Origin: Methylocella sp.
GTDB lineage: Bacteria; Pseudomonadota; Alphaproteobacteria; Rhizobiales; Beijerinckiaceae
Direction of reading: 5' to 3'
NCBI GenBank assembly: GCA_037200525.1
Contig: JBBCGG010000001.1
Location: 2,646,501 to 2,710,500 of the forward strand
Length of the DNA stretch: 64,000 nt
Part shown: positions 16,459-39,831 of the stretch, piece after piece
Layout: each line of letters begins with the position of its first letter
Numbering within the stretch: position 1 is the stretch's first letter
Program-made: the position numbers and the translations under genes
The notes under the pieces: model-generated
Told to the model about the DNA's origin: nothing
Databases searched by the model: none
What the model saw: the letters and a program-made list of their open reading frames with translations, nothing else

Positions 16459-16763
16459 ATGTGGTCTGTCCTGCCTGTCGAATAGGTGCGGGAGAAAATG
16501 AATAGTTCAAGGTTGACCGTAACGAAGACTGGTAAGGCCTATGCCGCCATCGGGCAAGACCCCTGCAACTAATGAGCGATTGGGTCAGTTTTGAGGTGCA
16601 TCCCTGTGATCAGGATGATTTATCCGCAAGCCTCAGAATGCGTCCGGCGGCGACTGCGGCGGGGCGGCAAGAAACAGATTTATACAGCGATAAGCTTCCA
16701 TCGAATGCTATGGTTCATGATGGACATCCCATCATGGCTCGTTTTCGCCGCCTGGCGCATCGC
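16459..16763. other. Upstream region of the GGDEF/EAL gene
   Basis: A 305-bp gap between two minus-strand genes. It must hold the 3' end of the GNAT gene and the promoter of the GGDEF/EAL gene. No convincing hairpin, promoter or small gene was seen; frames here overlap the GNAT gene antisense. Confidence 0.35.
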
Positions 16764-20978: not shown

Positions 20979-21437
20979 TTTCAACTTCGAGCCGCCTCGT
21001 TCCGCCTTGATGCAACGCTGCCGGACGGCCAGAACGCCCTCCAAGGAATGCAAAAGGCCGATGCGGACAGCGAGAGTCAAGGGAAGAAATAACGCCGGAT
21101 GAGCCCGCATCGGCGGCTCATACATCGGCGAAGTCGAGGCCAAGTCCACAAAGGTCGCAACTCGGCGCTCATTTGGTCAAAAAGATTGCCGCGGTCGCGC
21201 TAAAGACGTTGTCCTGAATTTTCCATTATGAGAATTGACTGATTGCAATAATCGTCACGCCAACTCATCACGCATCCTTGAAAGCTCATTTGGTTTAAAT
21301 TAGAAAATGATTGCTCAACGATGCGGCGCGCTTCCTTTTTTGGGTCCGGCGCGCAATGGTCTCATCCAAGGACTGCTGCTTTTTTCGATTATGTCTGTTT
21401 ACGCCGACAAGGAGCGCTTAAATGGGTTATGCATTAT

Positions 21438-21502: not shown

Positions 21503-21625
21503 ATTGCCTCGACCTTATGATTTAGCGACCTGATAGTCCGCATTCATTTGAAATTTGGCGCGCGGTCTTGTCCGGAAAACCGGTCCGGGCAAACGATCCG
21601 CTGTTTCTGAAGCAAGGTGGTTGCA

Positions 21626-23572
21626 GTGTCGCATCGTTTCGCAGAGATCGAGAAGAGCTCAGCTACCGCGACATTTGACGCAAGCCGCACCATTCATTCC
21701 TATTTCGCGGATGTCGTACGGAAGCATCCCGAGAAGCCGGCAATATTTTTCGGCGATGGTTTTATTTCCTATTCTGATCTTGACTGTTCATCTAACCAAT
21801 TCGCTCGATTCCTGACGTCAAAGGGCGTTCGCGCAGGCTCGCTGGTTGGACTGTTTCTGCCGCGCTCGCTGGATGCGGTCGTTGCGATGTTGGGTATTTT
21901 GAAAGCCGGCGCCGCCTTCGTCCCGCTGGATCCGGCCTATCCTTTCGATCACCTCTCATTCATTGCATCAGACGCCAAACCAATTGTCATGGTCACCGCC
22001 GCGCATATGGTCTTATCCGCGCAGCCTCGGCCGTGGTCGGCGCCGACAGTTTTCATCGATGCCGAGGAGGACGCCATAGCGCTTGAAAGCGCAGCGCCCT
22101 TGGCTGAGATCGCGATGGGCGATGATCTCGCCTATGTCATGTATACATCTGGAACGACGGGACGTCCGAAAGGCGTCATGGTTCCGCATCGCGGCGTGAC
22201 GCGCCTCGCTTGCAACAGCTTCGTCGAGCTTGGGCAAGGCGACGTGGTTTTGCAGCTCGCGCCTTTGGCCTTCGATGCCTCGACATTCGAGATCTGGAGC
22301 TGCCTCCTCAACGGGGCGGCGCTCGCTATCGTCGGCCCCGCCCAGCCGAGCTTTGGCGAGATCGGCGAGGCCATCGAAAAACACGACGTTACCACAGCCT
22401 GGCTCACCGCCAGCCTGTTCCACGCAATTGTCGATCATCAGCTCGAGATATTGCGCCCGCTGCGCCAACTGATCGCTGGCGGCGACGTCTTGTCGCCGCG
22501 CCATGTGCGCCGCGTGCTCGACGCAATGCCGCAATGCCGTCTCGTCAACGGTTATGGCCCGACTGAAAACACCACATTCACCTGCTGCCATACGATTGCG
22601 CGCGACGCCCCCGCCGATGCCCCGACGCCGGTCGGCCGCCCGATTGACCATACCCAGATTCATGTCCTCGATCTGGACCTCCGCCCAGTTGCGCGCGGCG
22701 AGATCGGCGAACTCTTCGCAGCCGGCGAGGGCGTAGCGCTCGGATATCTCAACCGGCCTGATCTCACGGCGGAGAAGTTCCTGCCCGATCCTTTCTGCGG
22801 CCAATCAGGGCGACTGATGTACCGCACTGGCGACCTTGTTCGGCAACGACCCGATGACGTGGTCGAGTTCGTTGGCCGCACTGATCGTCAGGTCAAGATC
22901 CGCGGCAAAAGGGTCGAACTTGACGAAGTAGAAGCGCTCGTCCGGCGCCTTCCAGAAGTCGCGGATGCCGCAACGGATGTGCGCGCCCGCACAGGCGGAG
23001 AGCGTAAGATTGTCGCCTATGTGACAATGAAGATTTGTTCATCATTTGACGCGGCGGAATCGCGACGGAAAATGCTCGAATTCGCGCCAAACCATATGAT
23101 CCCCGCGCATTTCGTGATTCTCGAAGAGCTGCCGCGCACGCCGAATGGCAAGGTAGATCGCGCCGCGCTTCCCGATCCGGTAGATGCGGCGGAGGCGGAG
23201 GCCCAGCCTATCGCGGCATTGAGCGAGGTCGAGTCTGCTCTCGCCGCGATTTGGAGCCGACTGCTGAAAATCGGCTCAGTTGGCCTCGACGCCAACTTCT
23301 TCGATCTTGGCGGCGCCTCGCTCGATGTGATGGCGCTGCAAGAAGAAATCAGAACGCGGTTTAGCCGCGAATTGCCGATGACCGCACTCTTCGAATTCAC
23401 CACAATTCGCGCGCTTGCGGCTCATCTGCAAAAGCAGGATCCGGCGCCGAGCCGAAGCGCTGCGGAGTCTCCCGACGGCGGATTAGCGATGGACGACATC
23501 AACAACCGCAGGCTCCGTCAGGCCGAGGCGCTCCGGCGCGTTGCTCGAAACCGCGCGAGGGCAGCGCTTTGA
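21626..23572 (+). CDS. NRPS loading protein, A-T (valine predicted)
   Basis: A stand-alone adenylation plus carrier protein of about 648 residues. It lacks a condensation domain, so it probably starts the line. Core motifs: A3 YTSGTTGRPKG, A4 FDASTFEIW, A5 NGYGPTEN, A7 YRTGD, A10 PNGKVDR with Lys at 512 (counted from 21617). Pocket residues by alignment to GrsA read D-A-F-W-I-G-G-T-F-K, which I recall as a classic valine code. The carrier serine is in GGASLD (568). The C-terminus ends in a basic helix, possibly a docking element for the next protein. GTG at 21626 is preferred (AAGGTGG upstream); GTG 21617 is possible. The stop overlaps the next gene by TTGA. Confidence 0.92.
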   Translation: MSHRFAEIEKSSATATFDASRTIHSYFADVVRKHPEKPAIFFGDGFISYSDLDCSSNQFARFLTSKGVRAGSLVGLFLPRSLDAVVAMLGILKAGAAFVPLDPAYPFDHLSFIASDAKPIVMVTAAHMVLSAQPRPWSAPTVFIDAEEDAIALESAAPLAEIAMGDDLAYVMYTSGTTGRPKGVMVPHRGVTRLACNSFVELGQGDVVLQLAPLAFDASTFEIWSCLLNGAALAIVGPAQPSFGEIGEAIEKHDVTTAWLTASLFHAIVDHQLEILRPLRQLIAGGDVLSPRHVRRVLDAMPQCRLVNGYGPTENTTFTCCHTIARDAPADAPTPVGRPIDHTQIHVLDLDLRPVARGEIGELFAAGEGVALGYLNRPDLTAEKFLPDPFCGQSGRLMYRTGDLVRQRPDDVVEFVGRTDRQVKIRGKRVELDEVEALVRRLPEVADAATDVRARTGGERKIVAYVTMKICSSFDAAESRRKMLEFAPNHMIPAHFVILEELPRTPNGKVDRAALPDPVDAAEAEAQPIAALSEVESALAAIWSRLLKIGSVGLDANFFDLGGASLDVMALQEEIRTRFSRELPMTALFEFTTIRALAAHLQKQDPAPSRSAAESPDGGLAMDDINNRRLRQAEALRRVARNRARAAL

Positions 23573-26500
23573 AAGAAGATCCGTCTGGCTCCGCCTCGCC
23601 GCTTCCTCCCGGCATCGCCATCATCGGCATGGCTGGCAGATTTCCCGGCGCCGCCGATATCGCAACGTTCTGGCGCAACTTGCGCGAAGGCGTTGAATCT
23701 ATAACGCGCTTCAAAGATGCGGAGTTGGAGGACGCTTTCGACTCGAGCGTTCGCAATGATCCGAACTTCGTCGGCGCCCGCGCCGTGCTGGATGGGATCG
23801 AGCAGTTTGACGCTGGCTTTTTCTCCATGCATGCGCGGGAAGCGGAGCTCACCGATCCGCAGCATCGCGTCTTTCTGGAATGCGCCTGGCAGGCGCTAGA
23901 GGATGGCGGCTACGACCCGGCGACCTATAAGGGGGCCATCGGCGTCTTCGCCGGGTGTAGCATGAATTCCTACTTCCTGCGCAATGTCTGCCAGGATCGA
24001 GCGGCGGTGGAGATCTTCACCAGCGACTACCAGATTGGCAGCTATCCGGAATTGCTGGGCTCGTTGCAGGACTTTCTCGCGACGCGGGTGTCCTACAAGC
24101 TCGATCTGCGTGGGCCGAGCGTCAATGTGCAGTCGGCCTGCTCGACCTCTTTGGTCGCCGTCGCGCAAGCTTGTCAGAGCCTCATGCTTTATCAGTCCGA
24201 CATGGCGCTGGCGGGAGGCGCGTCAATCACGCTGCCGCAGCGGCGCGGTTATCTCGCGCAAGAAGGCGCCATGGCCTCGCCGACCGGGCGATGCAGCACC
24301 TTTGACGCCAAGGCCGACGGCACGGTCTTCGGCAATGGGGCCGCCGTCGTCCTGTTGAAACGGATCGAGGATGCGCTCGAAGACGGCGATCATATTTATG
24401 CGGTTATCCGTGGTTCAGCACTGAACAATGACGGGGGCGCCAGGGCCGGCTTTACGGCGCCGAGCGCGAGCGGGCAGGCCAACGTAATCGCGGCTGCGCA
24501 TGCGGCCGCCGAGGTCGATGCGCGCACCATCAGCTATGTCGAATGTCACGGCACGGCGACGCCGCTTGGCGATCCGATTGAAGTTGCCGGACTGACCCGC
24601 GCCTTTCGCGCCAGCACCGAGGACGTTGGTTTCTGCGCTCTTGGCTCGGTGAAGCCGAATGTTGGTCATCTCGACGTCGCGGCCGGCGTGACCGGCCTCA
24701 TCAAAACGGCGCTGGCGTTGCAGCATAGGCAACTGCCGCCGACGCTTTTTTTCGAGACGCCAAATCCGCATATCGCTTTTGATGGCGGGCCGTTCTACGT
24801 CAACACGCAATGGCGCGATTGGCTGCGCGGCGACGAGCCCCGGCGAGCGGGGGTCAGCGCCTTCGGGGTCGGCGGCACCAATGCGCATGTCGTGCTGGAG
24901 GAGGCGCCCTTCGCGGTCCCGGAGCCTTTGGCCCGGCCAGCGCAAATCATTTGCGTTTCGGCGCGCAGCGCTACGGCGCTTGAGGCGGCGCGACGCAATC
25001 TGGCGCGCCACCTCAAGTCCAATCCCGATCTCCCGCTGGCCGATGTCGCTTATACGACGCAGATTGGACGGCGCGCTTTCGGACATCGCGCAGCCGTTGC
25101 CGTCCGGGATATTCAAGCGGCGGCGGCAATGCTGGAATCAGGCCAGGGCGTGGCCTATGGCGAGCAGTGCGCGGCCAGGACCATCGCTTTCATGTTCCCG
25201 GGCCAGGGCGCGCAATATCCCGGCATGGGGATTGACCTCTACCGCACGGAAGCTGCGTTTCGCTCCAGCATGTGGCGCAGCGCCGAGATTTTGAAGCCAG
25301 CGCTTGGCCGCGATCTTTGCGCGCTTCTTTATGGCGAAGGATCCGAACGTCTCGACTCCGAAGCCTTGCAGGCGACGGAGATCGCGCAGCCTGCTTTGTT
25401 CGCGGTTGGCTATGCCCTCGCGGCGCTGTGGCGGAGCTGGGGCGTTGCGCCGCAAATGATGATCGGCCATAGCGTCGGCGAGTTCGTGGCCGCCTGCATC
25501 GCCGGCGTTTTTTCGCACGAGGACGCGCTCGGACTCATCGCCGCTCGCGGCCGTCTGATGCAGGAGATGCCGCGCGGCTCGATGCTGGCCGTACGCCTGC
25601 CCGAAGCCGAGCTGGCGCCATTGCTCGCCGCGCCGCTGGCGCTCGCCGCGATCAACGGGCCAAAACTCTGCGTGGCTGCGGGGCCTGACGAGGCCGTGGC
25701 GGCGCTCGAGAACGAATTGACGGCGCGCGGGCTCATGAGCCGCCGGCTGCACACCTCGCATGCCTTTCATACCCCGATGATGGACCCGGCGGCCGCGGCT
25801 TTGCGGAAGCAATTTGCGGGCGTCAGGCTGTCGCCGCCGAAGTTGCGCGTCATTTCCTCAGTGACTGGCGACTGGCTCAGCGAATCTGAGGCGACCTCGC
25901 CGGACTATTGGGCGGAGCATTGCCGCGCGCCGGTGCGTTTTGGCGATGGGTTGGCGGCGCTGTTGCGCGAAAGTTCGTCAAACAAAGGCTCCAGCGCGGC
26001 CCGCGCGCCGATCCTGATTGAGACTGGGCCGGGGGTTACATTGTCCTCGCTGGCGCGGCAGGGCGGAGCCGGCAGCGGCCCCGACGCGGTTCTGGCCTCG
26101 CTGCCGGACGCATCGCGGGAGGCGGCCGACGAAGATGTGATGGCGAGCTCCGCGGCGCAGCTTTGGTGCGCCGGCGTTTCCATCGACTGGCGCGGCGTCC
26201 ACGCCGGCGCGCGGCGACGGCGCACGCCATTGCCGACCTATCCGTTCGAGCGCACGCGCCATTGGATCGATGCGCCTCCGACTACGCGCCAAACCGGCGC
26301 CGCGCCCGCGCCCGCGCGCGTCGAGCCTGAGTCCATCAATTCCCATTCCGCTGTCGAAACATCATTGACCGAGATATCTGTGAAAATGAATGCAGCGCCG
26401 GGCGCGATCGCCCATCCGGAAGTGAACATGGCTGCACCCGACGGCGCCAAGCTGCGCGAACGGGTGGTCGAGCTTTTTGAGAACCTTTCAGGCGAGTCGA

Positions 26501-29500
26501 TCGCAGGACTTGATCCTGAGACAAGCTTTCTCGAAATGGGCTTCGACTCACTGTTTCTCAGTCAAGTGACGCAGCAATTGCTGCGCGATTTCAAGGTCAA
26601 GCTGACTTTTCGCCAGTTGCTCGGCGATTTCTCGACGATTCCGGCTCTCGTCGCTCATCTCGCCGAAAATCTACCCCGTGAGATTGCGGCGGCTTCTGCG
26701 CCGCAACCCGCTGCGGTTCAGCTCGTCTCGGCATTGCAGCCGATCTCCGCGCCGCCGCAAGGTTTGTCTTCGCCGCCGCGTGGGGTCATTGGGTCCGATG
26801 CGGTCGAACAGGTCATCCGCGATCAGCTCGACGTCATGAGCCGCCTCATGGCGCAGCAGCTCGATGCCCTGCGCGGCGTTGGCGCTACAGCGCAACCTCA
26901 GAGCGCGGCCGCGATGCGGCAGCCTCAGACTATGACGCCAGCGACGGCTCCTGCGTCCGTCGCGACGCCGCCTTCGGCTTCGGTTTCCGCGTCCGCGCCG
27001 CACGACGAACCAAAATCCCGCTTCGATATGATCGCCGCGGCGCGCTCGGCGCCCGCCGCGGAAATGAATGAAATACAGCAGCGCGCGCTCGCCGAGTTGA
27101 CCCTGCGCTTCAATGCGCGCACGCCGGAGTCAAAGCGCCTCACGAAAGACTATCGGCCTGTTCTTGCCGATCCGCGCGCCGCCGCCGGGTTCCGCCAGGA
27201 ATGGAAAGATCTCGTCTATCCGATGGTCAGCGACCGCGCCAGCGGTTCGCGGATCTACGACGTTGACGGCAATGAATACGTTGATCTCGTCAATGGCTAT
27301 GGGCAGACCTTCTTCGGCCACGCGGCGCCTTTCGTCGTCGAGGCGGTCGGCGACCAGTTGCGCAAGGGTTTCGCAATAGGGCCGCAGTCGGCGCTGGCGG
27401 GGCGCGTCGCGGCGCTGTTCAGCGAGATGACCGGCAATGAGCGGGTGACCTTCTGCAACACCGGGTCGGAAGCCGTAATGGCGGCGATGCGAATCTCCCG
27501 CACGGTGACGGGCCGCTCGCTCATCGCCACTTTTACGGGCGATTACCACGGTCAGTTCGACGAGGTCCTTGTCAAAGGGAGCTTACGCTCCGGCGTTGCG
27601 CGCCCGATGGCCGCCGCAGCCGGCATTCCAGCGGAATCAGTGCAGAACATGGTTGTTCTGCCCTATGGCGCGCCGGAATCGCTCGATTGGATCCGCGCTC
27701 ATGCGGAAGAGCTGGCGGCCGTTCTGGTCGAACCGGTGCAAAGCCGCCATCCCGATCTGCGGCCGGTTGAGTTCCTCAAAGAAATCCGCGCGATCACCGA
27801 GACGACGGGAGCCGCGCTGATCTTCGACGAGGTGGTCACCGGCTTCAGGATGCATACCGGCGGCATGCAGGCGCTGTTTGGCATTCGCGCTGATCTTGCA
27901 ACCTACGGCAAGGTCGTCGGCGGCGGCCTGCCGGTCGGCATTCTGGCCGGCAAAGCGGCCTTCATGGACGCGCTTGACGGCGGCATGTGGCGGTATGGCG
28001 ATGATTCCTACCCCGAAGTTGGAATGACCTTTTTCGCCGGTACCTTCGTGCGCCATCCTCTGGTGATGGCGGCTGTGTGGGCCGTTTTGAACCACCTCAA
28101 GGAGCAGGGGCCAGCCCTGCAGGAAAGCGTCAGCGCGCGCACGGCTGGACTAGTGCGGCGCTTGAGCAATTTCGCGCGTCAGCGCGGCGTCGACTTCAAA
28201 ATCGAGACTTTCGGCAGTCTGTTCTTCTTCAACATCAGCGGCGTCAGCCGCTACGCCAGCCTGTTCTATCCGCATATGCTCGAACGCGGCGTTTATATCC
28301 AGGAGCACTATCCTTGCTTCCTGACGACGGCGCATAGCGACGCCGACGTTGCTGCGATCGCCGAGGCGTTTGAAGACAGCATCGTCGCGATGCAAAAAGC
28401 GGATTTCATGCCTGCGCCCGCCGGCATGGGGGCCCCGGAGCAAACCGATTTCCCGCTGACCGAAGCGCAGAATGAAATCTGGCTTGCAGCTCAGCTCTCT
28501 GACGAGGCCTCATGCGCTTTTAACGAGTCGATGACTCTTCGCCTGCGCGGCGCGCTTAATCGCGAGGCCTTGTCGAAAGCGCTGGATGAAGTGGTCGCCC
28601 GGCATGACGCCTTGCGGGGGGCCTTCCAGCCGAATGGCGAGCAAATGCGCATCCTGCCATTGCTGGAGCTTGCACTCACCGAATGTGACTTTGCGGGCCT
28701 GTCGCAGCAAGAGGCGGAGGCCGCTTGGCGCGATCTGTTGGCGAGCGATGCGGGGACGCCATTTGATCTCGCGAATGGGCCGCTCGTGCGAACGAAGCTG
28801 GTTCGCTTTGGAGCCGATGATCACGCTCTGGTTCTGACGGCGCATCACATCATTTGCGACGGCTGGTCATTCAACGTCATCATCGACGAGCTGGCCAAGC
28901 TATATGAGGCGGCGCTGACCGGCGCCGCCGCGGATCTGCCAACGCCAATGTCCTTCAGCCGCTACGGCGTCGAGGAGCGCATCCGGCAGGCGCGGCAGGG
29001 GCCCGCCGTCGATGCGTTCTGGCTGCCGCAATTCACGCCGCCGCCCCCCTCGCTCGACCTGCCAACCGACCGGCCGCGCCGCATTCAGAAAAGCTTTGCC
29101 GGCGCGACCTTGACGCGGACCATTGACGCGGATCTGACGCAGCGTTTCCGCAAAACCGCTGCGCGGCAGGGCTGCACTTTGTTCGTTGCGCTGCTGGCGA
29201 CATTCGAAACTCTGCTCGGGCGACTCTCCGGCCAGAACGAGGTCGTTGTCGGCATCCCCGCGGCGGGACAGTCTGTCGTTGACGGCGATAGCCTCGTCGG
29301 CCATTGCGTCAATTTTCTTCCGCTGCGCGGACGCTGGAGCGACGAGACGACTGTCGCCGAGCATCTGGCTGCGACCCGCCAGATTGTGCTCGCCGCTTAC
29401 GAGAACCAGAGCTTTACGCTCGGCACGCTCGTGCGCAAAATGGCGTTGCCGCGAGAAGCCGGCCGGCGGCCGCTGATCGAAGCGCAGTTCAACCTCGAGC

Positions 29501-31623
29501 GTCTAGGCGGCAAGATAAGTGCGCCGGGACTTGAGATTGACGCCAGGTCCAATCCAAAGCGTCATGTGATTTTCGACTTGTTCTTCAACATCACCGAACA
29601 GGACGGCGGTCTGCGCGTTGATTGCGACTACAACACCGACCTCTTCGGTGAAGCGACGATTGAGCGTTGGATTGGCCATTATCGCACGCTGCTCGTCGAG
29701 ATCGCGACCAATCCCTCGCAGCCCGCATCCGCGCTGCCGCTGATCTCGGCGACGGAGCGCAGATGGCTGACGCATGACCTCAATGATTCGGTCGCGTGCG
29801 ATCTCGACATGCGGCCATTGCATGAGCTGATCGCGGCGCAGGCCGCTCGCACCCCTTCAGCCATCGCTGCGCGCTTTGGCGATGCAGCTTTGACTTATCG
29901 CGAACTCGACGAGCGCTCCAATCGCCTCGCCAATCATCTGCGCGGCGTCGTAACGCAATCGCAAGCCCGCATTGGCATTGCGACGGAACGTTCGCTCGAT
30001 ATGCTGGTCGGCTTGCTGGCGATCATGAAAAGCGGGAGCGCCTATGTGCCGCTGGATCCGCATCATCCGGTGGCGCGCCTGCGTCTCGTAGTCGAGAGCG
30101 CAGCCATCTCCGCGGTGATTTGCGACAACGCCTTTGCCGCGGAGATAGCCTCTGGTTTGCCCATCATTCGGATCGATGCGGACGCCGCCGCAATCGCGGC
30201 CAATCCGGCGAGCGCTCCGCTCGTTGTGGGCGACGTCGAGCGCGCCTGCTATGTCATCTTCACGTCGGGCTCCACGGGGACGCCGAAAGGCGTCGAGATC
30301 GCTCATCGCTCGGTCGTCAATCTTTTATGGTCGATGGCGCGGACGTTGAAATTCGGGGGCGAGGACGTGTTGGTCGCGGCGACGACGATCGCATTCGACA
30401 TCGCGGCGCTCGAATTGTATCTGCCGCTGATCACCGGCGCTCAAGTTGTCATAGCGAGCCGCGACGATGTCCGCGGCGGCTTTGGGCTTGCCGCCCTCAT
30501 CGAGAACTCAAAAGCGACTCTGGTTCAGGCGACGCCTTCGCTGTGGCGGATTCTCATCGAAGCCGGATTTAAGGCCCGCACCGGTTTGAAAATGCTCTGC
30601 GGCGGCGAAGCGCTGCCGCGCGATCTAGCGGACGCGCTGCTGCAAAACGGCGATGAACTGTGGAACGTCTATGGCCCGAGCGAGACCACGATCTGGTCGA
30701 GCATCGGCAAGGTTTCGCAAGGATCGCCTATCACGATTGGCGCGCCGGTGTTGAATACGCAGCTCTATGTGCTCGATAACCGCTATGAGCTGGCGCCGGT
30801 CGGCGTGATCGGGCAATTGTTCATTGGCGGGGACGGGTTGGCGCGCGGCTATTTTCGCCGCCCCGACCTCGACGCAGCAGCGTTCTTCGATATTGCTGTG
30901 ACCGATGGCGTCCCGCAGCGCTTGTATCGCACCGGCGATCTCGCGCGGCGTCTGCCCAATGGCGACATTGAAATGCTTGGCCGCGTCGATGCTCAAGTGA
31001 AGCTGCGCGGATTCCGCATCGAACTTGAGGAAATCGAGGCCGTCATGCGGCAGTGCGAGGGCGTGTCCACCTGCGCGGCGGTGATCGACGCGCAGGTAGG
31101 CGAAACGCCGCGTCTCGTCGGATATTTTGTGCCGGCAACCGGTCAACAAACGCCTTCGCCATCAGCGTTGACGGCCCATGCGGTTCTCCATTTGCCCGAC
31201 TATATGGTGCCTCCGATTTGGGTCAGCCTCGATGCGCTGCCATTGAGCCCTAATGGGAAGCTTGATCGCAAGTCCTTGCCGCAGCCTGACCCGGCGCATG
31301 CGACCGAAAAGCGCGTCATTACCGCGCCGCGAACGCCGCTTGAGAGCAAGCTCGCAAAGATCTGGCGCGAAGTCTTGCAAATTGAAGAGATTGGCGTTCA
31401 CGATAATATCTTCTCGCTCGGCGCCGACTCAATTGACCTCTTTCGCATCGCGGCGCGCATGATGGCGGAAGGCATCGGCCTTGAGGCTCGGCATGTGATG
31501 CGCCTGCCGACGATTGGCGAACTGGCGCGAGCCGCCGATGATCAACCCATCGTCGTCGCTCAGACGGCGCCTTCGTTGAGAAGCTTCAGACGCGGCGTGC
31601 AAGCCAAGGAGCCGTCTGCATGA
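23569..31623 (+). CDS. Hybrid PKS-NRPS: KS-AT-ACP-AMT-C-A-T
   Basis: A 2684-residue synthase, start TTG overlapping the previous stop. Domains: KS about 14-445 (Cys191 in QSACSTS, His in ECHGTAT and KPNVGH); AT about 530-890 (Ser635 in GHSVGEF; HAFH suggests malonyl-CoA); ACP about 955-1035 (Ser994 in GFDSL); Pro/Ala linker to about 1165; class III aminotransferase about 1175-1610 (PLP Lys1448 in YGKVVGGG); C about 1625-2050 (HHIICDG at 1759-1765); A about 2090-2560 (FTSGSTGTPKG); T about 2585-2655 (Ser2621). A-pocket reads D-I-L-Q-L-G-V-I-W-K, one off the glycine code I recall. No KR, DH or ER. The KS-AT-ACP-AMT-C order recalls McyE and mycosubtilin MycA. Confidence 0.95.
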   Translation: MKEDPSGSASPLPPGIAIIGMAGRFPGAADIATFWRNLREGVESITRFKDAELEDAFDSSVRNDPNFVGARAVLDGIEQFDAGFFSMHAREAELTDPQHRVFLECAWQALEDGGYDPATYKGAIGVFAGCSMNSYFLRNVCQDRAAVEIFTSDYQIGSYPELLGSLQDFLATRVSYKLDLRGPSVNVQSACSTSLVAVAQACQSLMLYQSDMALAGGASITLPQRRGYLAQEGAMASPTGRCSTFDAKADGTVFGNGAAVVLLKRIEDALEDGDHIYAVIRGSALNNDGGARAGFTAPSASGQANVIAAAHAAAEVDARTISYVECHGTATPLGDPIEVAGLTRAFRASTEDVGFCALGSVKPNVGHLDVAAGVTGLIKTALALQHRQLPPTLFFETPNPHIAFDGGPFYVNTQWRDWLRGDEPRRAGVSAFGVGGTNAHVVLEEAPFAVPEPLARPAQIICVSARSATALEAARRNLARHLKSNPDLPLADVAYTTQIGRRAFGHRAAVAVRDIQAAAAMLESGQGVAYGEQCAARTIAFMFPGQGAQYPGMGIDLYRTEAAFRSSMWRSAEILKPALGRDLCALLYGEGSERLDSEALQATEIAQPALFAVGYALAALWRSWGVAPQMMIGHSVGEFVAACIAGVFSHEDALGLIAARGRLMQEMPRGSMLAVRLPEAELAPLLAAPLALAAINGPKLCVAAGPDEAVAALENELTARGLMSRRLHTSHAFHTPMMDPAAAALRKQFAGVRLSPPKLRVISSVTGDWLSESEATSPDYWAEHCRAPVRFGDGLAALLRESSSNKGSSAARAPILIETGPGVTLSSLARQGGAGSGPDAVLASLPDASREAADEDVMASSAAQLWCAGVSIDWRGVHAGARRRRTPLPTYPFERTRHWIDAPPTTRQTGAAPAPARVEPESINSHSAVETSLTEISVKMNAAPGAIAHPEVNMAAPDGAKLRERVVELFENLSGESIAGLDPETSFLEMGFDSLFLSQVTQQLLRDFKVKLTFRQLLGDFSTIPALVAHLAENLPREIAAASAPQPAAVQLVSALQPISAPPQGLSSPPRGVIGSDAVEQVIRDQLDVMSRLMAQQLDALRGVGATAQPQSAAAMRQPQTMTPATAPASVATPPSASVSASAPHDEPKSRFDMIAAARSAPAAEMNEIQQRALAELTLRFNARTPESKRLTKDYRPVLADPRAAAGFRQEWKDLVYPMVSDRASGSRIYDVDGNEYVDLVNGYGQTFFGHAAPFVVEAVGDQLRKGFAIGPQSALAGRVAALFSEMTGNERVTFCNTGSEAVMAAMRISRTVTGRSLIATFTGDYHGQFDEVLVKGSLRSGVARPMAAAAGIPAESVQNMVVLPYGAPESLDWIRAHAEELAAVLVEPVQSRHPDLRPVEFLKEIRAITETTGAALIFDEVVTGFRMHTGGMQALFGIRADLATYGKVVGGGLPVGILAGKAAFMDALDGGMWRYGDDSYPEVGMTFFAGTFVRHPLVMAAVWAVLNHLKEQGPALQESVSARTAGLVRRLSNFARQRGVDFKIETFGSLFFFNISGVSRYASLFYPHMLERGVYIQEHYPCFLTTAHSDADVAAIAEAFEDSIVAMQKADFMPAPAGMGAPEQTDFPLTEAQNEIWLAAQLSDEASCAFNESMTLRLRGALNREALSKALDEVVARHDALRGAFQPNGEQMRILPLLELALTECDFAGLSQQEAEAAWRDLLASDAGTPFDLANGPLVRTKLVRFGADDHALVLTAHHIICDGWSFNVIIDELAKLYEAALTGAAADLPTPMSFSRYGVEERIRQARQGPAVDAFWLPQFTPPPPSLDLPTDRPRRIQKSFAGATLTRTIDADLTQRFRKTAARQGCTLFVALLATFETLLGRLSGQNEVVVGIPAAGQSVVDGDSLVGHCVNFLPLRGRWSDETTVAEHLAATRQIVLAAYENQSFTLGTLVRKMALPREAGRRPLIEAQFNLERLGGKISAPGLEIDARSNPKRHVIFDLFFNITEQDGGLRVDCDYNTDLFGEATIERWIGHYRTLLVEIATNPSQPASALPLISATERRWLTHDLNDSVACDLDMRPLHELIAAQAARTPSAIAARFGDAALTYRELDERSNRLANHLRGVVTQSQARIGIATERSLDMLVGLLAIMKSGSAYVPLDPHHPVARLRLVVESAAISAVICDNAFAAEIASGLPIIRIDADAAAIAANPASAPLVVGDVERACYVIFTSGSTGTPKGVEIAHRSVVNLLWSMARTLKFGGEDVLVAATTIAFDIAALELYLPLITGAQVVIASRDDVRGGFGLAALIENSKATLVQATPSLWRILIEAGFKARTGLKMLCGGEALPRDLADALLQNGDELWNVYGPSETTIWSSIGKVSQGSPITIGAPVLNTQLYVLDNRYELAPVGVIGQLFIGGDGLARGYFRRPDLDAAAFFDIAVTDGVPQRLYRTGDLARRLPNGDIEMLGRVDAQVKLRGFRIELEEIEAVMRQCEGVSTCAAVIDAQVGETPRLVGYFVPATGQQTPSPSALTAHAVLHLPDYMVPPIWVSLDALPLSPNGKLDRKSLPQPDPAHATEKRVITAPRTPLESKLAKIWREVLQIEEIGVHDNIFSLGADSIDLFRIAARMMAEGIGLEARHVMRLPTIGELARAADDQPIVVAQTAPSLRSFRRGVQAKEPSA

Positions 31624-34517
31624 CAATGCGCTGCGCCGATGATTTGCAGGATCACGATCAGCACATTTCGGAGCAGCCGGTTTCTCGCGCTTCGACTGTC
31701 GCGGAATCTGTCTTCCCTTGCTCGACGGCGCAGCAGCGATTCTGGTTCATTGACGCGCTCGATCCCGCCAGTCCGTCGCTCAACATCGCTTTGCGGTGGG
31801 AAATCACCGGGCAGTTCAGCCCTGCGACGATTGAGAAGGCGTTCCAGACTATCGTCGAAAGGCACGAGGTTTTACGCACGAGGATCGTCGAGAAAGATGG
31901 CGATCCCATGCAGGAAGTCGCGGCCAGCTATAATTTCAAGCTGACCGTTATCGACCTGACGATTTTCCCTGAGGCGAACCGGTTGGACGAGGCGATGGCG
32001 TTGGCCCAGCGCGAAGCGCGCTTGCCATTTCACATCGACAGCCTGCCGTTGATTCGCGCGACCATGCTTCGCTTGGCGACGGATCGTGCATTCTTGCTGG
32101 TCACAGTCCATCACGTTGCCTTCGACGGCGCGTCGATTGGCATTCTCGCGCGCGAATTCGGCGATATAGTTTCGGCGCTCGACGCCAAACATAACTACGA
32201 CTTGCCCGAACTGCCGCTGCAATATGGCGATTTTTGCCTTTGGCAGAAAGAGTATTTCGCTAGCGGCAGCTTTGAGAAGGAAATCGCCTACTGGAAAAAA
32301 AGACTGACTGGAGCGCCGTATTTTCGGGTTCGTCCAGACCGTGAGCGGGCCGGCCGGCCGACGCATGGGGGCGAAATTCTCGGGACCACCGTACCGAAGG
32401 AGCTTGGCGAGAGGCTGGAGGAAGCCGCGTGCAAGCGAAATATGACCCTATTCAGTTTTTGTTGCGCGGTGGTGGCGGCGATGCTGCATCGCTTCACTGA
32501 CGAGACGGACATAGTTTTTGGCACTCAAATCGCGGGACGCGACGAGCCCGAACTGGAAAATTTGATCGGCGTCTTCATCAATGATCTCGTTTTGAGATTC
32601 GACGCCTCGGGCGACCCAACCTTTGCGGAATTTCTGCCAAGCGTGAATGAAACCGTCCTCGATGCGCTAATCCACCAGCGGATGCCGTTCCAGAAACTGG
32701 TTGAGATTCTCAATCCGCCGCGCGACTCTTCGCGCACGCCTCTCATCTCAGTCAATTTCACTGTCCTCGGCGACGTTCTGGAGCACAAAAGATACGGCGA
32801 TTTCAACCTTAGCGGACAGCCGTCGCTTTCGGCCGGCTCTCTCTACGACCTCAATTTGTTTCTGGTGCATTGGCCCTCCGGCTGGCGCATGGCTATTGAG
32901 TTCGACCCGAGTCTTTTCGAAAGGGATACGGCCGAGCGAATGCTCGCTTTCCTGATGTCCGTGTTCGAGTTCGCCGTTTCGACGCCCGGCGCAAAATTGT
33001 CCGCGCTGACGCCGCCGGTTCGTGAAGCGCGCGATGCTGAAGCGCGCCGCACGGATCTCGCCGCTGTCGAAGCCTTGCTGTTGCGTCATGCAGATGTGAA
33101 AGACGCCGTTGCAGCGCCATGGGCGAACGGGGGCGACGGAAGCCGATCCTACGCTTATGTCGCGCCGGCGCCCGATTTGCGCCTTCCGCTGGAGGCTCTG
33201 CCTGCAAAGCTGAAAGCCTATCTCGAGCATTCCTTGCCGCCTGGCGACGCCCCGGCAGGGGTTAGCGTCCTGCTCGCTTTGCCTCGCACAGCGGGCGGCG
33301 ATGTGGATTACGCGGCTTTGCCGCCACCGCGACCTCCTCCAGCTTCGTATGCGCCTTCCGGCGACGGATTGAGCGATGCCGAAGCGAAAGTGGCGGCGAT
33401 CTGGCGCGAACTGCTCAACGTGGACGCCATCGCGCCGACGTCGAATTTCTTCGAGCTTGGCGGCCATTCGCTTTTGACCATCCGGCTCATAAACCGCATC
33501 TCCAGCGTTTTTGGCGTCAAAGCCGATGTGATGAATCTTTTTCAGGCCCCGACCTTGCGGGAATTCGCTGCGAGCCTATCCGTCAGCGAAGCCAAAATCG
33601 AAGCGCCGCCGGATCGCTCCCGCCCTGATGTCTCTCGCCCCGGTGGCTCCCGCCTCGATGACTCCCGAATCGTCAAAATTCAGTCAAATGGCGACAAGAC
33701 GCCGATCATCGCCATCCACAATACGTTCATCTATTACAATCTTTCGAGGGAACTCGGCCTGGACCGCCCGTTTCTCGGAGTTCAGCTGTTTGATCCCAGC
33801 ATTCCACGTCTATTGCCTCCTCGCGGCCTAAGCGAGCTAGCGGCCGATTACGTTCGCATCATTCGCGAGGCTCAGCCTCATGGGCCTTATATTCTGTTGG
33901 GCTTGTGCGTGCCTGGAGCCATTGCCTACGAAGCGGCGCAGCAACTGCGAAAAACCGGAGAATTGGTCCCTCTAGTCGTGATGGCGGATGCTTGGCGCCC
34001 CGATTTATTGGCGAGTTTGACGGTTGGCCAACGTTTTCTCACCGAGCTGAGCTATAAGATCCATGTGATCAAGCATCGAATAGGTTTGTTCTTCAGCGGC
34101 AAACAATCGATCGCGCGAACGTTGGCTGCTTTTACCATCATCCGCAAAAGCAGAGTTCTGGATTTGGCTGCTTGGCTGCGCGTCATCGACCCGTCCGAGC
34201 AGGGACAAGATGATCGAGGAACCTGGCTGTTCATGCGCTATCTTGAGGCGGCGAAACGTCTCTACCGGGCGTCGCCGTCGACGGGCGATGTCGTTATTTT
34301 ACGAAGCGACGAAATCGTGACTGGTTTTTCCGATCCGAGCATGGGGTGGTCCGATTTGGTCAACGGCCGCGTCATACGATTGCATGTTCCCGGCTGGCAT
34401 GAAGGCATGTTCCAGGATGAGGGCGCGACTGTGATCGCCGAATGTCTACGGCCGTTGCTCGAAGAGATCGACGCCAAGCGATCGGCGAGCCATAAAGGCT
34501 TCGCCGTTCCGGCATAG
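31620..34517 (+). CDS. NRPS: C-(A remnant)-T-thioesterase with Cys nucleophile
   Basis: A 965-residue terminal protein, coupled by ATGA to the previous gene. C domain about 30-460 has an intact HHVAFDG (164-170). Residues about 475-570 look like only the small C-terminal subdomain of an A domain: VEALLLRHADVKDAV, KLKAYLEHSLPP, and GGDVDYAALP, where the A10 Lys is Asp561. No A1-A8 core is present, so it cannot activate an amino acid. T follows (Ser617 in GGHSLLT), then an Asp/Arg/Ser-rich linker and a type I thioesterase of about 260 residues. The TE elbow reads GLCVPG with Cys763 where Ser is usual; Asp790 and His927 complete a triad. The T must be charged in trans or by transfer. Confidence 0.92.
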   Translation: MTMRCADDLQDHDQHISEQPVSRASTVAESVFPCSTAQQRFWFIDALDPASPSLNIALRWEITGQFSPATIEKAFQTIVERHEVLRTRIVEKDGDPMQEVAASYNFKLTVIDLTIFPEANRLDEAMALAQREARLPFHIDSLPLIRATMLRLATDRAFLLVTVHHVAFDGASIGILAREFGDIVSALDAKHNYDLPELPLQYGDFCLWQKEYFASGSFEKEIAYWKKRLTGAPYFRVRPDRERAGRPTHGGEILGTTVPKELGERLEEAACKRNMTLFSFCCAVVAAMLHRFTDETDIVFGTQIAGRDEPELENLIGVFINDLVLRFDASGDPTFAEFLPSVNETVLDALIHQRMPFQKLVEILNPPRDSSRTPLISVNFTVLGDVLEHKRYGDFNLSGQPSLSAGSLYDLNLFLVHWPSGWRMAIEFDPSLFERDTAERMLAFLMSVFEFAVSTPGAKLSALTPPVREARDAEARRTDLAAVEALLLRHADVKDAVAAPWANGGDGSRSYAYVAPAPDLRLPLEALPAKLKAYLEHSLPPGDAPAGVSVLLALPRTAGGDVDYAALPPPRPPPASYAPSGDGLSDAEAKVAAIWRELLNVDAIAPTSNFFELGGHSLLTIRLINRISSVFGVKADVMNLFQAPTLREFAASLSVSEAKIEAPPDRSRPDVSRPGGSRLDDSRIVKIQSNGDKTPIIAIHNTFIYYNLSRELGLDRPFLGVQLFDPSIPRLLPPRGLSELAADYVRIIREAQPHGPYILLGLCVPGAIAYEAAQQLRKTGELVPLVVMADAWRPDLLASLTVGQRFLTELSYKIHVIKHRIGLFFSGKQSIARTLAAFTIIRKSRVLDLAAWLRVIDPSEQGQDDRGTWLFMRYLEAAKRLYRASPSTGDVVILRSDEIVTGFSDPSMGWSDLVNGRVIRLHVPGWHEGMFQDEGATVIAECLRPLLEEIDAKRSASHKGFAVPA

Positions 34518-34575
34518 CGCGGCAGACGCTGGTCGCGTCGCTACTCAGAAAAGACGTAAAGGGAATATTGCGGCG

Positions 34576-35892
34576 ATGCTCGATCTTCGTTTCGATCAGC
34601 TGCGCGACCGCTTTGGGTGGATGCTTGGCGCGCTTGTCATCGCCGGGACAGTCGTCGCCCTTATCGTTGCATATCGCTCCGGTCGCCCGCCGCGCATAGT
34701 CACGCTGTCGGCCTTGACGATGACGCTGGTTCTTGGCGGTTTGCTGATCGCTCCCGCCGCGCCGCGCCTCATCAGGGCGTTGCATCAACTCGCGACGGCG
34801 TCGCCGCCAACCGGTCCGTCGGGGCCTCTCCTTGTTGAGACCGTCAGCGTCTCGCTGCCGCCTGCGATGGGCGAGGGTCCCCCGATCATTGCTCAGATCT
34901 GGTATCCGGCCGCTGGCGATGGCGCTGCATCCGCATCCGACTTGACGCTCAACAATGTTGCGGAGATCGACTGCGCCGCAGTCATGCGCGATGCGCGTTT
35001 ATCCGCGGCCGAGCGATCATACCCGATCCTGCTCTCCGCACAGAGCGGAAGCGGTCTCAACCATGACAAGGCTTCGACTTCGGCGGAGCTCGCAAGCCAC
35101 GGCTATGTCGTGTTTGCGGTGGATGACGCCGATTATGAGTTCCGTCCCTTCAATTCTCAGGACGGGGAGGAAGCGCCGCCGCGATGGAATTTCGATTTTT
35201 CTTCCGCCGAGGCTTTCAAGGCGACCCTGCGCAACGCTGATCTCAAGGTGCATCGTTTAGCGGAGAAAACGCTAAAGGCGCTAGATCGGCTTGACGCCTG
35301 CGCCAACGCGGAATGGCGCGAAAAGCTGCGATTCGATCAAGTGGGCTTCTTCGGCTTTTCCATTGCGGGCGCAACGGCCGCGGAGGCGGGCGTGTTGGAC
35401 CCGCGCGTCGCCGCCGTAGCCAATCTCGACGGATGGTTGTTTGGCCGCGCCGCGACGGGCGCGCTGGACAAGCCGTATTTGATCCTAAATAGCGATGCGC
35501 CGCTTCCTGGGCCGCGCCAGCTGCAATCGCTCGACGTTAACGAGCGGTATGAAGCGACGTTGACCGATCGGGACTGGCGTGAAGAAGTCCGGCTGATGAA
35601 TCTGCCAGACGGCTACGGCTATTGGATCTATGGCGCGTCGCATGTAAATTTTTCCGATGGCGTCTTCGATCGCGGTTCCTATAAATACTGGTTGTTGGCC
35701 GACCCATTTCGCATCAAATCCATTGCAGATGCTTATTTGCTGGCATTTTTTGATAAATATCTCCGCAACATGAATAGCCCGCTGCTTCGCCAAACGCCGT
35801 CGCCCTATAAAGAAGTTGCTGTGCTGCACGGAAACGCGCATTGGCTTGCTGGAGAAATCGGACGTTCGCTGCGTTCTCTCCTCGGCTGGTGA
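34576..35892 (+). CDS. Membrane-anchored PAF-acetylhydrolase-like alpha/beta hydrolase
   Basis: A 438-residue protein with two N-terminal hydrophobic helices (about 15-35 and 48-68), a linker, and an alpha/beta hydrolase domain. The nucleophile elbow is GFSIAG with Ser262, in a segment (DQVGFFGFSIAGA) like bacterial PAF acetylhydrolase or dienelactone-hydrolase relatives; a possible catalytic His is in ASHVNFSD. VWYPA-like QIWYPAAG supports the PAF-AH link. It starts 58 bp after the TE gene, so is likely in the operon. It may act on the peptide product, for example deacylation or immunity, or on an envelope lipid. That is inference; substrate unknown. Confidence 0.8.
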   Translation: MLDLRFDQLRDRFGWMLGALVIAGTVVALIVAYRSGRPPRIVTLSALTMTLVLGGLLIAPAAPRLIRALHQLATASPPTGPSGPLLVETVSVSLPPAMGEGPPIIAQIWYPAAGDGAASASDLTLNNVAEIDCAAVMRDARLSAAERSYPILLSAQSGSGLNHDKASTSAELASHGYVVFAVDDADYEFRPFNSQDGEEAPPRWNFDFSSAEAFKATLRNADLKVHRLAEKTLKALDRLDACANAEWREKLRFDQVGFFGFSIAGATAAEAGVLDPRVAAVANLDGWLFGRAATGALDKPYLILNSDAPLPGPRQLQSLDVNERYEATLTDRDWREEVRLMNLPDGYGYWIYGASHVNFSDGVFDRGSYKYWLLADPFRIKSIADAYLLAFFDKYLRNMNSPLLRQTPSPYKEVAVLHGNAHWLAGEIGRSLRSLLGW

Positions 35893-35943
35893 CGCCTGCG
35901 GGCCGCGCGCGCCACAAGGGCCGCGCCATTTAACCAAGGGGGC

Positions 35944-37056
35944 ATGGTGACGTCGAGACTCAACGTTTTTTACAGAGTGCGCGGCGATGCCGGTACGATC
36001 GAAGCCCGCGCTCTCGCCATCGCGGTGGAGCAGAGCGTGGAGATGCCGCTTTCGGCGATCCGCGATCCGGCCATAGTCTCCGACATCGTCGGGCAGGTGG
36101 CCGCGATCGACGATTGCGGCGATGGCTGGTTCGACGTGCGGATCGACCTCGCCGCCGCGACCATAGGGGATGACGCGGGGCAATTGATCAATATGCTGTT
36201 TGGCAACACGTCGCTGCAAGATGACGTCATCCTGCGCGACGCTATATTGCCCGACGATCTGTTGGCGTGGTTTGGCGGTCCGCGCCTTGGGCTCGCCGGT
36301 CTGCGGGTGCGCGCGGATGCGCAGATGCGGGCGCTGACCTGCTCGGCGCTGAAACCGCAAGGACTGCCGGCGGCCGAACTCGGCGAGCTCGCCTATCAAC
36401 TGGCGCTAGGCGGCCTCGATTTCATCAAGGATGATCACGGGCTGGCGAACCAGTCCTATAGTCCTTTCGCCGACCGCATTCGCGCCTGCGCGGCGGCGAC
36501 GCGCAAGGCCGCCAAGGCGACTGGCCGCTCGACCCGCTACGTCCCCAGCCTAGCCGGCTATTACGATGAGATGGAGCGGCAGATCGGGCAAGCGCGCGAC
36601 GAAGGACTGGATACCGTTATGATTGCGCCGATGATCGCCGGGGTCTCGAATTTTCACGCGTTGCGCCGCTCCAATCCCGATTTCGCTTTTCTAGCCCATC
36701 CGACAATGACCGGAGCCGCACGCGTGTCTCCCGTCTTATTCGCTAGGCTGTTTCGGCTGTTTGGCGCGGACGCGTCGATATTTCCCAATTACGGCGGGAG
36801 ATTTAGTTATTCGGCGGCGACCTGCAAAGCGATCTCGCAGGGACTTCTTGGGCCTTGGGGCGCGTTAGCTCCCGCCGTCCCGACGCCGGCGGGTGGGATG
36901 ACTTTGCAACGCGTCCCGGAACTGCTTGATTATTACGGCCGCGACGTGATGCTGCTCATCGGCGGCGCCCTTCTTTCGGCTCCGCTTGGGGCGATCGCGG
37001 AAGAGACCGCTGGTTTCGTTCGCGCCGTCGCCGAACATGATTACGAGCGGTCTTGA
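35944..37056 (+). CDS. RuBisCO-like protein (form IV)
   Basis: A 370-residue member of the RuBisCO large-subunit superfamily, COG1850 type. The N-terminal ferredoxin-like domain covers about 1-115, the barrel the rest. The Lys175-equivalent is Lys137 in ALKPQG, but Lys177 is Gln139. The carbamylation loop reads DFIKDDHG: Lys162, Asp163 and Asp164 are kept while the Glu204 equivalent is His165. Loop 6 is replaced by IFPNYGGRF, without the Lys334 region. It therefore cannot be a normal carboxylase; RLPs act as isomerases, enolases or decarboxylases. It is 51 bp after the hydrolase, likely same operon. ATG 35944 or GTG 35947 both fit the AAGGGGG. Confidence 0.92.
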   Translation: MVTSRLNVFYRVRGDAGTIEARALAIAVEQSVEMPLSAIRDPAIVSDIVGQVAAIDDCGDGWFDVRIDLAAATIGDDAGQLINMLFGNTSLQDDVILRDAILPDDLLAWFGGPRLGLAGLRVRADAQMRALTCSALKPQGLPAAELGELAYQLALGGLDFIKDDHGLANQSYSPFADRIRACAAATRKAAKATGRSTRYVPSLAGYYDEMERQIGQARDEGLDTVMIAPMIAGVSNFHALRRSNPDFAFLAHPTMTGAARVSPVLFARLFRLFGADASIFPNYGGRFSYSAATCKAISQGLLGPWGALAPAVPTPAGGMTLQRVPELLDYYGRDVMLLIGGALLSAPLGAIAEETAGFVRAVAEHDYERS

Positions 37057-37060
37057 GAGA

Positions 37061-37957
37061 TCATGCTCTCATTTTATGGACAATATCCGCGAGCGTCCTG
37101 CGGATTGGAAGGGCTAAACCCATTGCGCGAGACTTGACTATATCGCCTCGAGGGTACGCTCCGGGAAGAGGCGGGTTGAGGGTCAGCCGCCGGAGGTAGT
37201 GATTGCAGGCCCGCACGCGTCCCCGCGCCCGCGAGGCGTCCGTCTCGAAAACGAAAGAATATGAGATTGAGCGGGATTTGCCCGTCTCGACCCAATGCGG
37301 CGCGTTTTGCGGCTGATGCAGACCCTTGCCTGGCTCGAGCGCAAAGACCTGCTCGCGCGACGGATCGCGCGTGGCCAAATCGACTTCGGCGATCGTCACG
37401 CCGCCGCTGCGGTAAAAGCGCTCCAATTCCGCCTCCCGCATGACGCTTGGCGAGTAGACATGATAGGTTTTCTGGCCTTCGATCTGAGTAAAGAAGGCAA
37501 TCTCCGGGTCGAAATGACACGGCGTCGTCGTCGCGCCGGAGCTTATGAAAAGGCCAGCCTCAAGCCGTACAACGCGCTCCCCGCCAAGTCCGCCAAGTCG
37601 ATCGACGACCTGCCCGAATAGTGCGTCAAGGAGATCTCGGAATCGTGCATCGTGATTTTCGGGGCGCTTCAATAATATGCGGTAGGAGCCGGACTCAAGC
37701 TGGTCGAGCGCTTCGTCGGGCCGATAGGACGCAATCGGAACGGAGTTGAAAGCAGCGCCAGGCGCGGTAGCGCTGTGCGCTATATAATAATCATGTTTGC
37801 AATCGGCGTATTTGCGCGCCAACGCATGAATATTGTCTATTGTGAACAGGTCAAGCTTATCAATTGAATGATTGAAGCTAAAGGCTTCTTGGTCAAATTG
37901 ATTTTTCAAGGCGTCGGAACGGAGGTCCAGACCCTCAAAATCATCGAGCGCACCCAT
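37061..37957 (-). CDS. JmjC/cupin-fold Fe(II)/2-oxoglutarate oxygenase
   Basis: A 298-residue protein with the JmjC-type metal triad: His148 and Asp150 in TPCHFDPEIAFF and a distal His221 in NAPHWVETG. The GQKTYHVYSP strand follows the first pair as in Cupin_8 hydroxylases. AAGGAAA lies eight bases before the ATG. Such enzymes hydroxylate amino acids, peptides or proteins. Its position converging on the RLP gene with only 4 bp between stops suggests it belongs to the island, and hydroxylation of the peptide or a precursor is the natural guess. It could also be unrelated to the pathway. The C-terminal 60 residues are basic and less typical. Confidence 0.82.
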   Translation of the reverse strand: MGALDDFEGLDLRSDALKNQFDQEAFSFNHSIDKLDLFTIDNIHALARKYADCKHDYYIAHSATAPGAAFNSVPIASYRPDEALDQLESGSYRILLKRPENHDARFRDLLDALFGQVVDRLGGLGGERVVRLEAGLFISSGATTTPCHFDPEIAFFTQIEGQKTYHVYSPSVMREAELERFYRSGGVTIAEVDLATRDPSREQVFALEPGKGLHQPQNAPHWVETGKSRSISYSFVFETDASRARGRVRACNHYLRRLTLNPPLPGAYPRGDIVKSRAMGLALPIRRTLADIVHKMRA

Positions 37958-38257
37958 CGCAATTTCCTTTTCAGCAATAACCTTTACGGCCCTCCTTGAC
38001 GAAGCAAAGGAGGTCAGCGGAAAGCGGATTAGCCTAGCGTAGCGGCGAAATGTATTTGGCCATTATAATGGATAATTGGCTCGAACGATGTGCGCTGCGT
38101 TACCGAATGTCAACATTACGGCCGTGGCGCTACGTTGCCTTGGGGCAGCAAATGTGCTCACATTTGGCGTCGGTTGGCCGGAACTCCAGCAGACAGCCTG
38201 CCTTCCTCGCGCCGCCACTTAGGATTAGGTGAAACAATCTCTGACACCCGCGATCAA
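37958..38257. other. Divergent region between oxygenase and cupin genes
   Basis: About 300 bp, partly AT-rich, with the promoters of both flanking genes expected here. No repeat or strong -35/-10 pair was picked. An in-frame ATG for the cupin lies at 38090, but the protein read from it before residue 57 does not look like the family. Confidence 0.35.
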
Positions 38258-38701
38258 TTGACGTCTCTCCGCAAAAGCGTCGAAGCCTGCCGATGGGAAG
38301 GCGTAGAGAATCGCCCCTATAAGGACGCCAATGACGCGCCCTTCAAGGCGATCTCCAGACAGGTTTTGTTTTCCGATCCGCGACAGCTCGGCGAATTGCG
38401 CTATTTCGAAATCGAGCCGGGAGGGTTTTCAACTCTCGAGCGGCATGAGCACATGCACGGCGTCATGGTGCTGCGCGGGCAGGGGGAATGTCTGGTCGGC
38501 GAGACGGTCAGCGCATTGAAGCTGCATGATCTGGTCACAATCGCGCCTTGGACCTGGCATCAGTTCCGCGCCGGCCCCGCGACGCCTCTTGGCTTTCTCT
38601 GCCTGGTAAATGCCGCCAGAGATCGGCCGCAGTTGCCGACAGATGAGGATTTGGCCGCGTTAAAGGCAAACCCCGCCGTAGCGGCGTTTCTTGGCGGCTA
38701 G
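38258..38701 (+). CDS. Small cupin-domain protein
   Basis: A single-cupin protein of about 147 residues. The metal-binding motifs are visible: cupin motif 1 in SRQVLF...FSTLERHEHMHGVMVLRGQGE and motif 2 in DLVTIAPWTWHQFRAG, with three His and a Glu. Relatives open with a segment like CRWEGVENRPYK about 10-15 residues in, which favours TTG at 38258; ATG at 38090 is the alternative and no clear ribosome site decides. Small cupins of this shape are often of unknown substrate. It is the last gene before the cytochrome oxidase block, so whether it belongs to the island is uncertain. Confidence 0.7.
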   Translation: MTSLRKSVEACRWEGVENRPYKDANDAPFKAISRQVLFSDPRQLGELRYFEIEPGGFSTLERHEHMHGVMVLRGQGECLVGETVSALKLHDLVTIAPWTWHQFRAGPATPLGFLCLVNAARDRPQLPTDEDLAALKANPAVAAFLGG

Positions 38702-39671: not shown

Positions 39672-39831
39672 ATTTGACCCTCTTCCCGCTTGGCTCAATG
39701 AGCCTGTCTTTATCAAAGCCGCCCGAAGCGCGGCGCTATGCTGATCGCGCTGAACTGCGCATTATCAGTGCAAGCTCGACTGATGCGTTTGCCTCGTTTG
39801 GCAGCGTTGGTCAAGAGAAACCGAACGTTGC

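Follow-up and report, generated by a model that had tools for sequence, protein, structure and literature searches.

What do three adjacent synthase genes in a Methylocella genome make, and which of their neighbors belong to the same pathway? The initial annotation of the window (the whole stretch of 64,000 nucleotides analyzed here, part of a single-contig genome of 5.24 Mb) grouped the synthases with a hydrolase, a RuBisCO-like protein (RLP) and a JmjC oxygenase as a candidate undescribed system. All six open reading frames are in the ORF list of the window, five on the plus strand and the last on the minus strand (Table 1). The synthase genes are coupled by TTGA and ATGA overlaps and the following gaps are 58, 51 and 4 bp, so the gene layout was described accurately, down to the hydrolase and RLP on the same strand and the convergent oxygenase. 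The locus is a real, conserved hybrid NRPS-PKS of a known chemical kind with an unusual end module. A fuller reading, to which we give slightly better than even chances, is that of a conserved alphaproteobacterial NRPS-PKS flanked by SURF1 and a housekeeping pair of RLP and cupin, making a vicinal-diamine product from valine, malonate and glycine.

Table 1. Features of the locus, with positions in the window.
Feature	Position	Strand	Basis
SURF1, left flank of the cluster	20223..21149	-	Pfam
Protein 1, loading A-T	21617..23572	+	ORF; Pfam: AMP-binding, PP-binding
Protein 2, KS-AT-ACP-AMT-C-A-T	23569..31623	+	Pfam: KS, AT, two PP-binding, class-III aminotransferase, Condensation, AMP-binding
Protein 3, C-(weak A C-terminal subdomain only)-T-TE	31620..34517	+	Pfam: Condensation, PP-binding, Thioesterase
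Alpha/beta hydrolase, PAF-AH-like	34576..35892	+	Pfam, 21.9 bits (cut-off 20)
RLP, RLP1 type, KDDH	35944..37056	+	Pfam RuBisCO_large
JmjC/Cupin_8-like oxygenase, variable accessory gene	37061..37957	-	Pfam JmjC_2, 26.3 bits (cut-off 22)
Cupin, MTXu-5P methylsulfurylase type, usual RLP partner	38090..38701	+	Best match Rru_A2000
COX3-like gene, right flank	38808..39716	-	Named from reading and place beside CtaG, COX1 and COX2

The domain orders A-T, KS-AT-ACP-AMT-C-A-T and C-T-TE, together with the hydrolase, RLP and JmjC assignments, were confirmed by Pfam, and the synthase domains match far beyond chance (E down to 9e-90). In protein 3 the three named domains are there, but a weak C-terminal subdomain of an A domain had been overlooked. 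SURF1, threonine synthase and M16 peptidase genes flank the cluster on one side and cytochrome oxidase genes on the other. An ORF of 223 residues at 16572-17243 has no Pfam match and keeps the same place across the genus, 45-58% conserved. No PPTase or transporter gene was found among the cluster genes; the same genome has two ACPS-family genes at other places.

Protein 2 carries its domains in line in one protein, and its AMT is closest to that of mycosubtilin MycA (PDB 6kfm, E 6.8e-124), which upholds the proposed likeness of the middle protein to MycA. Domain order and active-site motifs were observed directly. The motifs of KS, AT, ACP, AMT, C1 and T2 are present, with the meanings that we assume for them: TYGKVVGG at residue 1445 holds what is presumably the PLP lysine of the AMT, and HAFH in the AT is taken to mark the malonyl type. 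Protein 2 begins with the KS and has no acyl-activating start domain; the loading A-T is encoded by a gene of its own. The A1 code reads DAFWIGGTF, which we take to be valine, and the A2 code reads DILQLGVIW, of a pattern (DILQLG[MV][IV]W) that we take to be glycine-like. With codes read outside Aliiroseovarius, Variovorax, G111 and G119, the A2 pattern was found in 23 of 26 cases (exceptions in G011, G285 and G003), and A1 gave 16 different readings in 24; the reading of G011 comes from a degenerate domain. Because the code positions were set by motif context and read against general code tables, and no paper on the codes was found in the open-licence literature, we infer the substrates; product, order of steps and role are proposals of the same kind. 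Rearranged loci were seen in G011 (L109/L110) and G003 (L176/L177), where protein 2 and the TE end are fused into one protein whose second A code is presumably valine-like. Protein 1 of G011 has a degenerate A, a partial C and a second A-T.

How might the parts work together? A1 would load valine onto its own T domain, and the KS would condense it with malonyl. The AMT would aminate the beta-ketone, which makes the acyl chain a beta,gamma-diamine (a vicinal diamine), and C1 would join this chain to the glycine that A2 has loaded. Protein 3, having no A core, would add no amino acid of its own; it would take the chain and release it via the Cys thioesterase. The predicted core is 3,4-diamino-5-methylhexanoyl-glycine (C9H19N3O3, 217.143, calculated) or a cyclized form. 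Processing or transfer of this product would fall to the hydrolase, which is probably anchored in the membrane; the JmjC-like enzyme may add a hydroxyl group to it. The RLP and the cupin would recycle methylthioadenosine.

The annotation had looked to a recurrent set in several genomes, and for the synthases such a set was found. What recurs is A-T / KS-AT-ACP-AMT-C-A-T / C-T-TE. The hydrolase often comes next and the oxygenase is sometimes nearby; the unit occurs in Hyphomicrobiales and Rhodobacterales. AMT matches were found in 13 of 397 genomes of the order (E <= 1e-90) and in 16 of 398 genomes of the phylum (E <= 1e-120), this genome included each time. The three-part order is kept in nine of the 12 other order-level matches, and in G025 up to the point where the contig stops; it is missing from G111 and G119. 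Six plasmid loci have it as well (three in Rhizobium, the others in Ensifer, Loktanella and, fused, Rhodobacter), among eight taken non-randomly from 50 matches (the top of the list and annotated records); those of Aliiroseovarius and Variovorax have a different layout. In the AMT tree, eight genus clusters of this site group with support 100/99, including that of G003, which has no RLP there, and four other genus clusters form a separate group. Between G008 and G009 there is purifying selection, with dN/dS of 0.10 for protein 2 (part), 0.12 for protein 3, 0.15 for the hydrolase and 0.14 for the RLP. The values for G002 and G014 are 0.16 for protein 2 and 0.15 for protein 3; that of 0.56 for protein 1 is based on very few changes. 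Judged by titles and abstract openings, neither the cluster nor NRPS/PKS genes in rhizobial polysaccharide loci are described in any paper that searches of the open-licence literature brought up. For Beijerinckiaceae methanotroph genomes, more type I PKS clusters have been reported, and the available part of that source does not name the present one (PMC11964084). The comparison points to a recurrent family of NRPS/PKS loci that keeps its glycine step nearly fixed, exchanges its starter and ends in an unusual termination module.

The termination module was compared by aligning 22 sequences of protein 3, this one included (those of G285, G382, G305, G231, G011 and G003 stand outside the alignment). 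Here the A C-terminal subdomain (PF13193) scores 23.6 bits, below the cut-off of 24.5 bits, and the A core is absent. The remnant stretch is found in 10 of the 22 (this one included; also Rhodobacter, Loktanella and Ensifer) and is seen by Pfam, under the cut-off, in the four of those ten that were scanned. A recently decayed C-A-T-TE protein of this species is ruled out by the occurrence of the remnant without an A core in those ten. The TE motif is GLCVPG with a Cys nucleophile, which is shared by all 22 sequences, and the triad Asp is at position I in 21. The end module varies between relatives, as protein 3 carries two C domains in G285, G382 and G305. From the alignment of C2, T, A remnant and TE, and from the published comparison of Cys thioesterases, protein 3 is read as a release module that would not use its own A domain to add a residue.

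Could protein 3 nevertheless add a third residue, with its T loaded in trans or by A1 or A2 and C2 condensing? The motif HHxxxDG of C2 is present here and in eight others of the 22, and T3 is intact in this protein, all of which favor such a step, but HQ replaces HH in 13 of the 22, the T domain is missing in two (G025 and G396), and Pfam found no AMP-binding core in this protein 3 or in six relatives scanned. A third residue is on balance unlikely. The Cys nucleophile raises the further question of whether the thioesterase closes a strained ring, a beta-lactam or beta-lactone. In the available part of the published comparison, the SulM and ObiF thioesterases likewise use Cys with an unusual triad, the Asp of SulM lying after strand 7, and AB3403 has a Cys thioesterase with an ordinary Asp (PMC11298585). 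The aligned sequences have the catalytic Cys, and in 21 of the 22 the Asp keeps the ordinary position as in AB3403 rather than that of SulM, with which ObiF is grouped. A motif scan outside the alignment found Ser in G285 and G382 (and Cys in G011), so that ring closure of this kind appears improbable; a thioesterase of beta-lactam type is disfavored by the Asp position. The preferred reading remains that protein 3 is a release module.

The accessory enzymes had been presented as one set. Relatives of the hydrolase and of the JmjC-like enzyme recur beside synthases elsewhere, not universally, and both are therefore plausible accessories; the RLP most likely does not belong with them. The hydrolase has the motif GFSIAG and N-terminal hydrophobic stretches noted by eye, and its best PDB sequence match is the esterase 5yae (E 2.6e-10). 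The gene directly after protein 3 is a relative in seven of 10 genome loci outside the genus (27-34% identity); within the genus, G008, G009, G010 and G001 have one there at 42-51% identity, and G004 has a fragment. None was seen beside the cluster in G002, G014, G005, G011, G003, G396, G025, G426 or L161-L166, and the hydrolase profile had no match among 30 reference proteins taken from the plasmid loci with polysaccharide genes, synthase-adjacent genes included. JmjC relatives lie about 5 kb or less from the cluster in G008 (52% identity) and in G005, G011, G285, G382 and G305 (27-31%); none was found in the stretches of G009, G010, G001 and G003. Remnants of 71 and 74 matching residues, which look to be decaying, lie between RLP and cupin in G002 (L105) and G014 (L108). 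The HxD...H motif of the JmjC protein (H148, D150, H214 and H221, presumably the metal-binding residues) is invariant in three sequences. No PDB sequence matched the protein at E 0.01, and its predicted structure has a mean pLDDT of 35.5.

Does the RLP belong to the assembly line? Its best solved relative is PDB 3qfw (E 2.5e-122), which we take to be R. palustris RLP1, and the two have the KDDH motif in common. The cupin, which lies outside the range first annotated, best matches Rru_A2000 (PDB 3jzv, E 2.3e-53). Both mtnA and mtnP are in the genome, as is a second, true RuBisCO-type match elsewhere. The traits of an RLP of the MTA-isoprenoid shunt (DeepYkr) are found here: 3qfw as closest relative, KDDH, a cupin nearby with one gene between, mtnA and mtnP. 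In this shunt, as described in the available parts of two sources, the RLP1-type RLP is an MTRu-1P 1,3-isomerase and the cupin an MTXu-5P methylsulfurylase (PMC5893883; PMC4958253).

Separability of the RLP from the synthases was observed directly. Among the best 80 of 183 RLP loci, the cupin lies at most 1.4 kb downstream in 77; two of the three cupin-less loci end less than 300 bp from the RLP, and L098 has no cupin in the 10 kb downstream. Synthases occur at four of these best 80 loci, 47 of which, including all four, reach at least 9 kb upstream. Outside the genus, the RLP-cupin pairs of L122 (G033) and L121 (G039) have the same order, with no synthases in the 20 kb fetched. Co-occurrence was also tallied in 15 genus genomes. 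A genuine pathway role of the RLP, in tailoring or in precursor supply, could be argued from its position on the same strand at a spacing of 51 bp and from its adjoining the synthases in seven of the 15 (G000, G002, G005, G008, G009, G011 and G014). Against this, G001 and G010 carry both more than 400 kb apart, and in G003 the synthases lie between SURF1 and COX3, in a genome without any close RLP. G007 has both on separate short contigs; G004, like G003, has synthases without RLP, G006 and G013 have RLP without synthases, and G012 has neither (G004, G006, G007 and G012 are fragmented assemblies, with G006 88% and G012 77% complete). Because synteny decouples it from the synthases and its sequence is of the 3qfw type, the RLP is rejected as a tailoring enzyme; we regard that role as very improbable. 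The RLP looks like an isomerase of the MTA-isoprenoid shunt, kept with its cupin independently of the synthases, and is most likely a neighbor rather than a part of the assembly line. The grouping in the initial annotation thus holds for the synthases, a real unit, but not for the RLP. The claim of an undescribed system likewise stands in part: the synthases are without a characterized match in the open-licence literature searched, but the RLP half of the novelty is explained. A housekeeping RuBisCO-like gene is hereby separated from a biosynthetic cluster with which a plain sequence reading would merge it.

What might the product do? In relatives it is probably connected with surface polysaccharide. 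All seven alphaproteobacterial plasmid loci fetched lie among polysaccharide genes (five by annotation, two by tblastn); the Variovorax plasmid locus has one glycosyltransferase and no export gene. A GINT1_N protein (L162, L165) or a Peptidase_S15 hydrolase (L161, L164) is nearby on some of the plasmids L161-L167. Within 35 kb, a limit picked after the distances were seen, a Poly_export gene is found in 10 of 22 genomes outside the genus, where 0.8 would be expected (G510 and G546 dropped from 24), and in five of the six genera with the three-part order (0.26 expected). In nine genomes, an export gene lies within 35 kb of eight of nine synthase loci versus four of 14 other condensation-domain loci (Fisher 0.007), and within 22 kb of five of nine versus two of 14 (Fisher 0.052); these counts were made by hand, and two of the controls are on one G285 island and several on short contigs. 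The alternative is a free secreted small molecule with no connection to polysaccharide, be it a signal, an antibiotic or a metal binder. The plasmid loci and the export genes of other genomes argue against it, and the genus itself argues for it: cluster flanks scanned there hold mostly housekeeping genes, and an export gene lies within 35 kb in only one of 11 genomes (G007 dropped from 12), namely G010, with housekeeping genes between cluster and glycan genes. For the present cluster the nearest polysaccharide export gene is 933 kb away, and we give a free product an even chance. Given 10 of 22 genomes outside the genus and one of 11 within it, the case for a polysaccharide link is good across the family, and for the present copy the link is unproven. 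A wider proposal, which we advance tentatively and hold to be improbable as a whole, is of a widespread alphaproteobacterial line that would pass a vicinal-diamine acyl-glycine with a lineage-swapped starter to a polysaccharide of the cell surface by way of an A-less C-T-Cys-TE module, as a nonribosomal exopolysaccharide decoration, with a stand-alone locus in methanotroph relatives. If the product is placed on polysaccharide, assembly-line chemistry gains a little-studied use in surface-glycan modification.

Several known systems resemble parts of this locus. The MTA-isoprenoid shunt of R. rubrum and R. palustris is alike in an RLP close to 3qfw, a cupin close to Rru_A2000, and mtnA with mtnP; here a JmjC gene separates RLP from cupin and synthases adjoin. 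The NRPS/PKS genes of rhizobial and rhodobacteral exopolysaccharide clusters, for which no product name was found, have the same gene order and domains. Unlike the present locus, they carry a PPTase and sugar genes, and a GINT1_N or Peptidase_S15 protein stands at or near the place of the hydrolase. The uncharacterized NRPS AB3403 (PDB 4zxh) shares the Cys nucleophile and the ordinary Asp position, whereas the termination module here is without an A core. Hybrids of the MycA/McyE type have an acyl-activating start domain in the same protein, and MycA, of the mycosubtilin synthase (iturin family), starts from an activated fatty acid and has the order KS-AT-ACP-AMT-C-A-T. The logic of protein 2 is the same, as is the kind of AMT matched; in contrast to MycA, the line described here has an amino-acid start from a separate A-T protein, a glycine-like A2 and a short C-(A remnant)-T-Cys-TE end.
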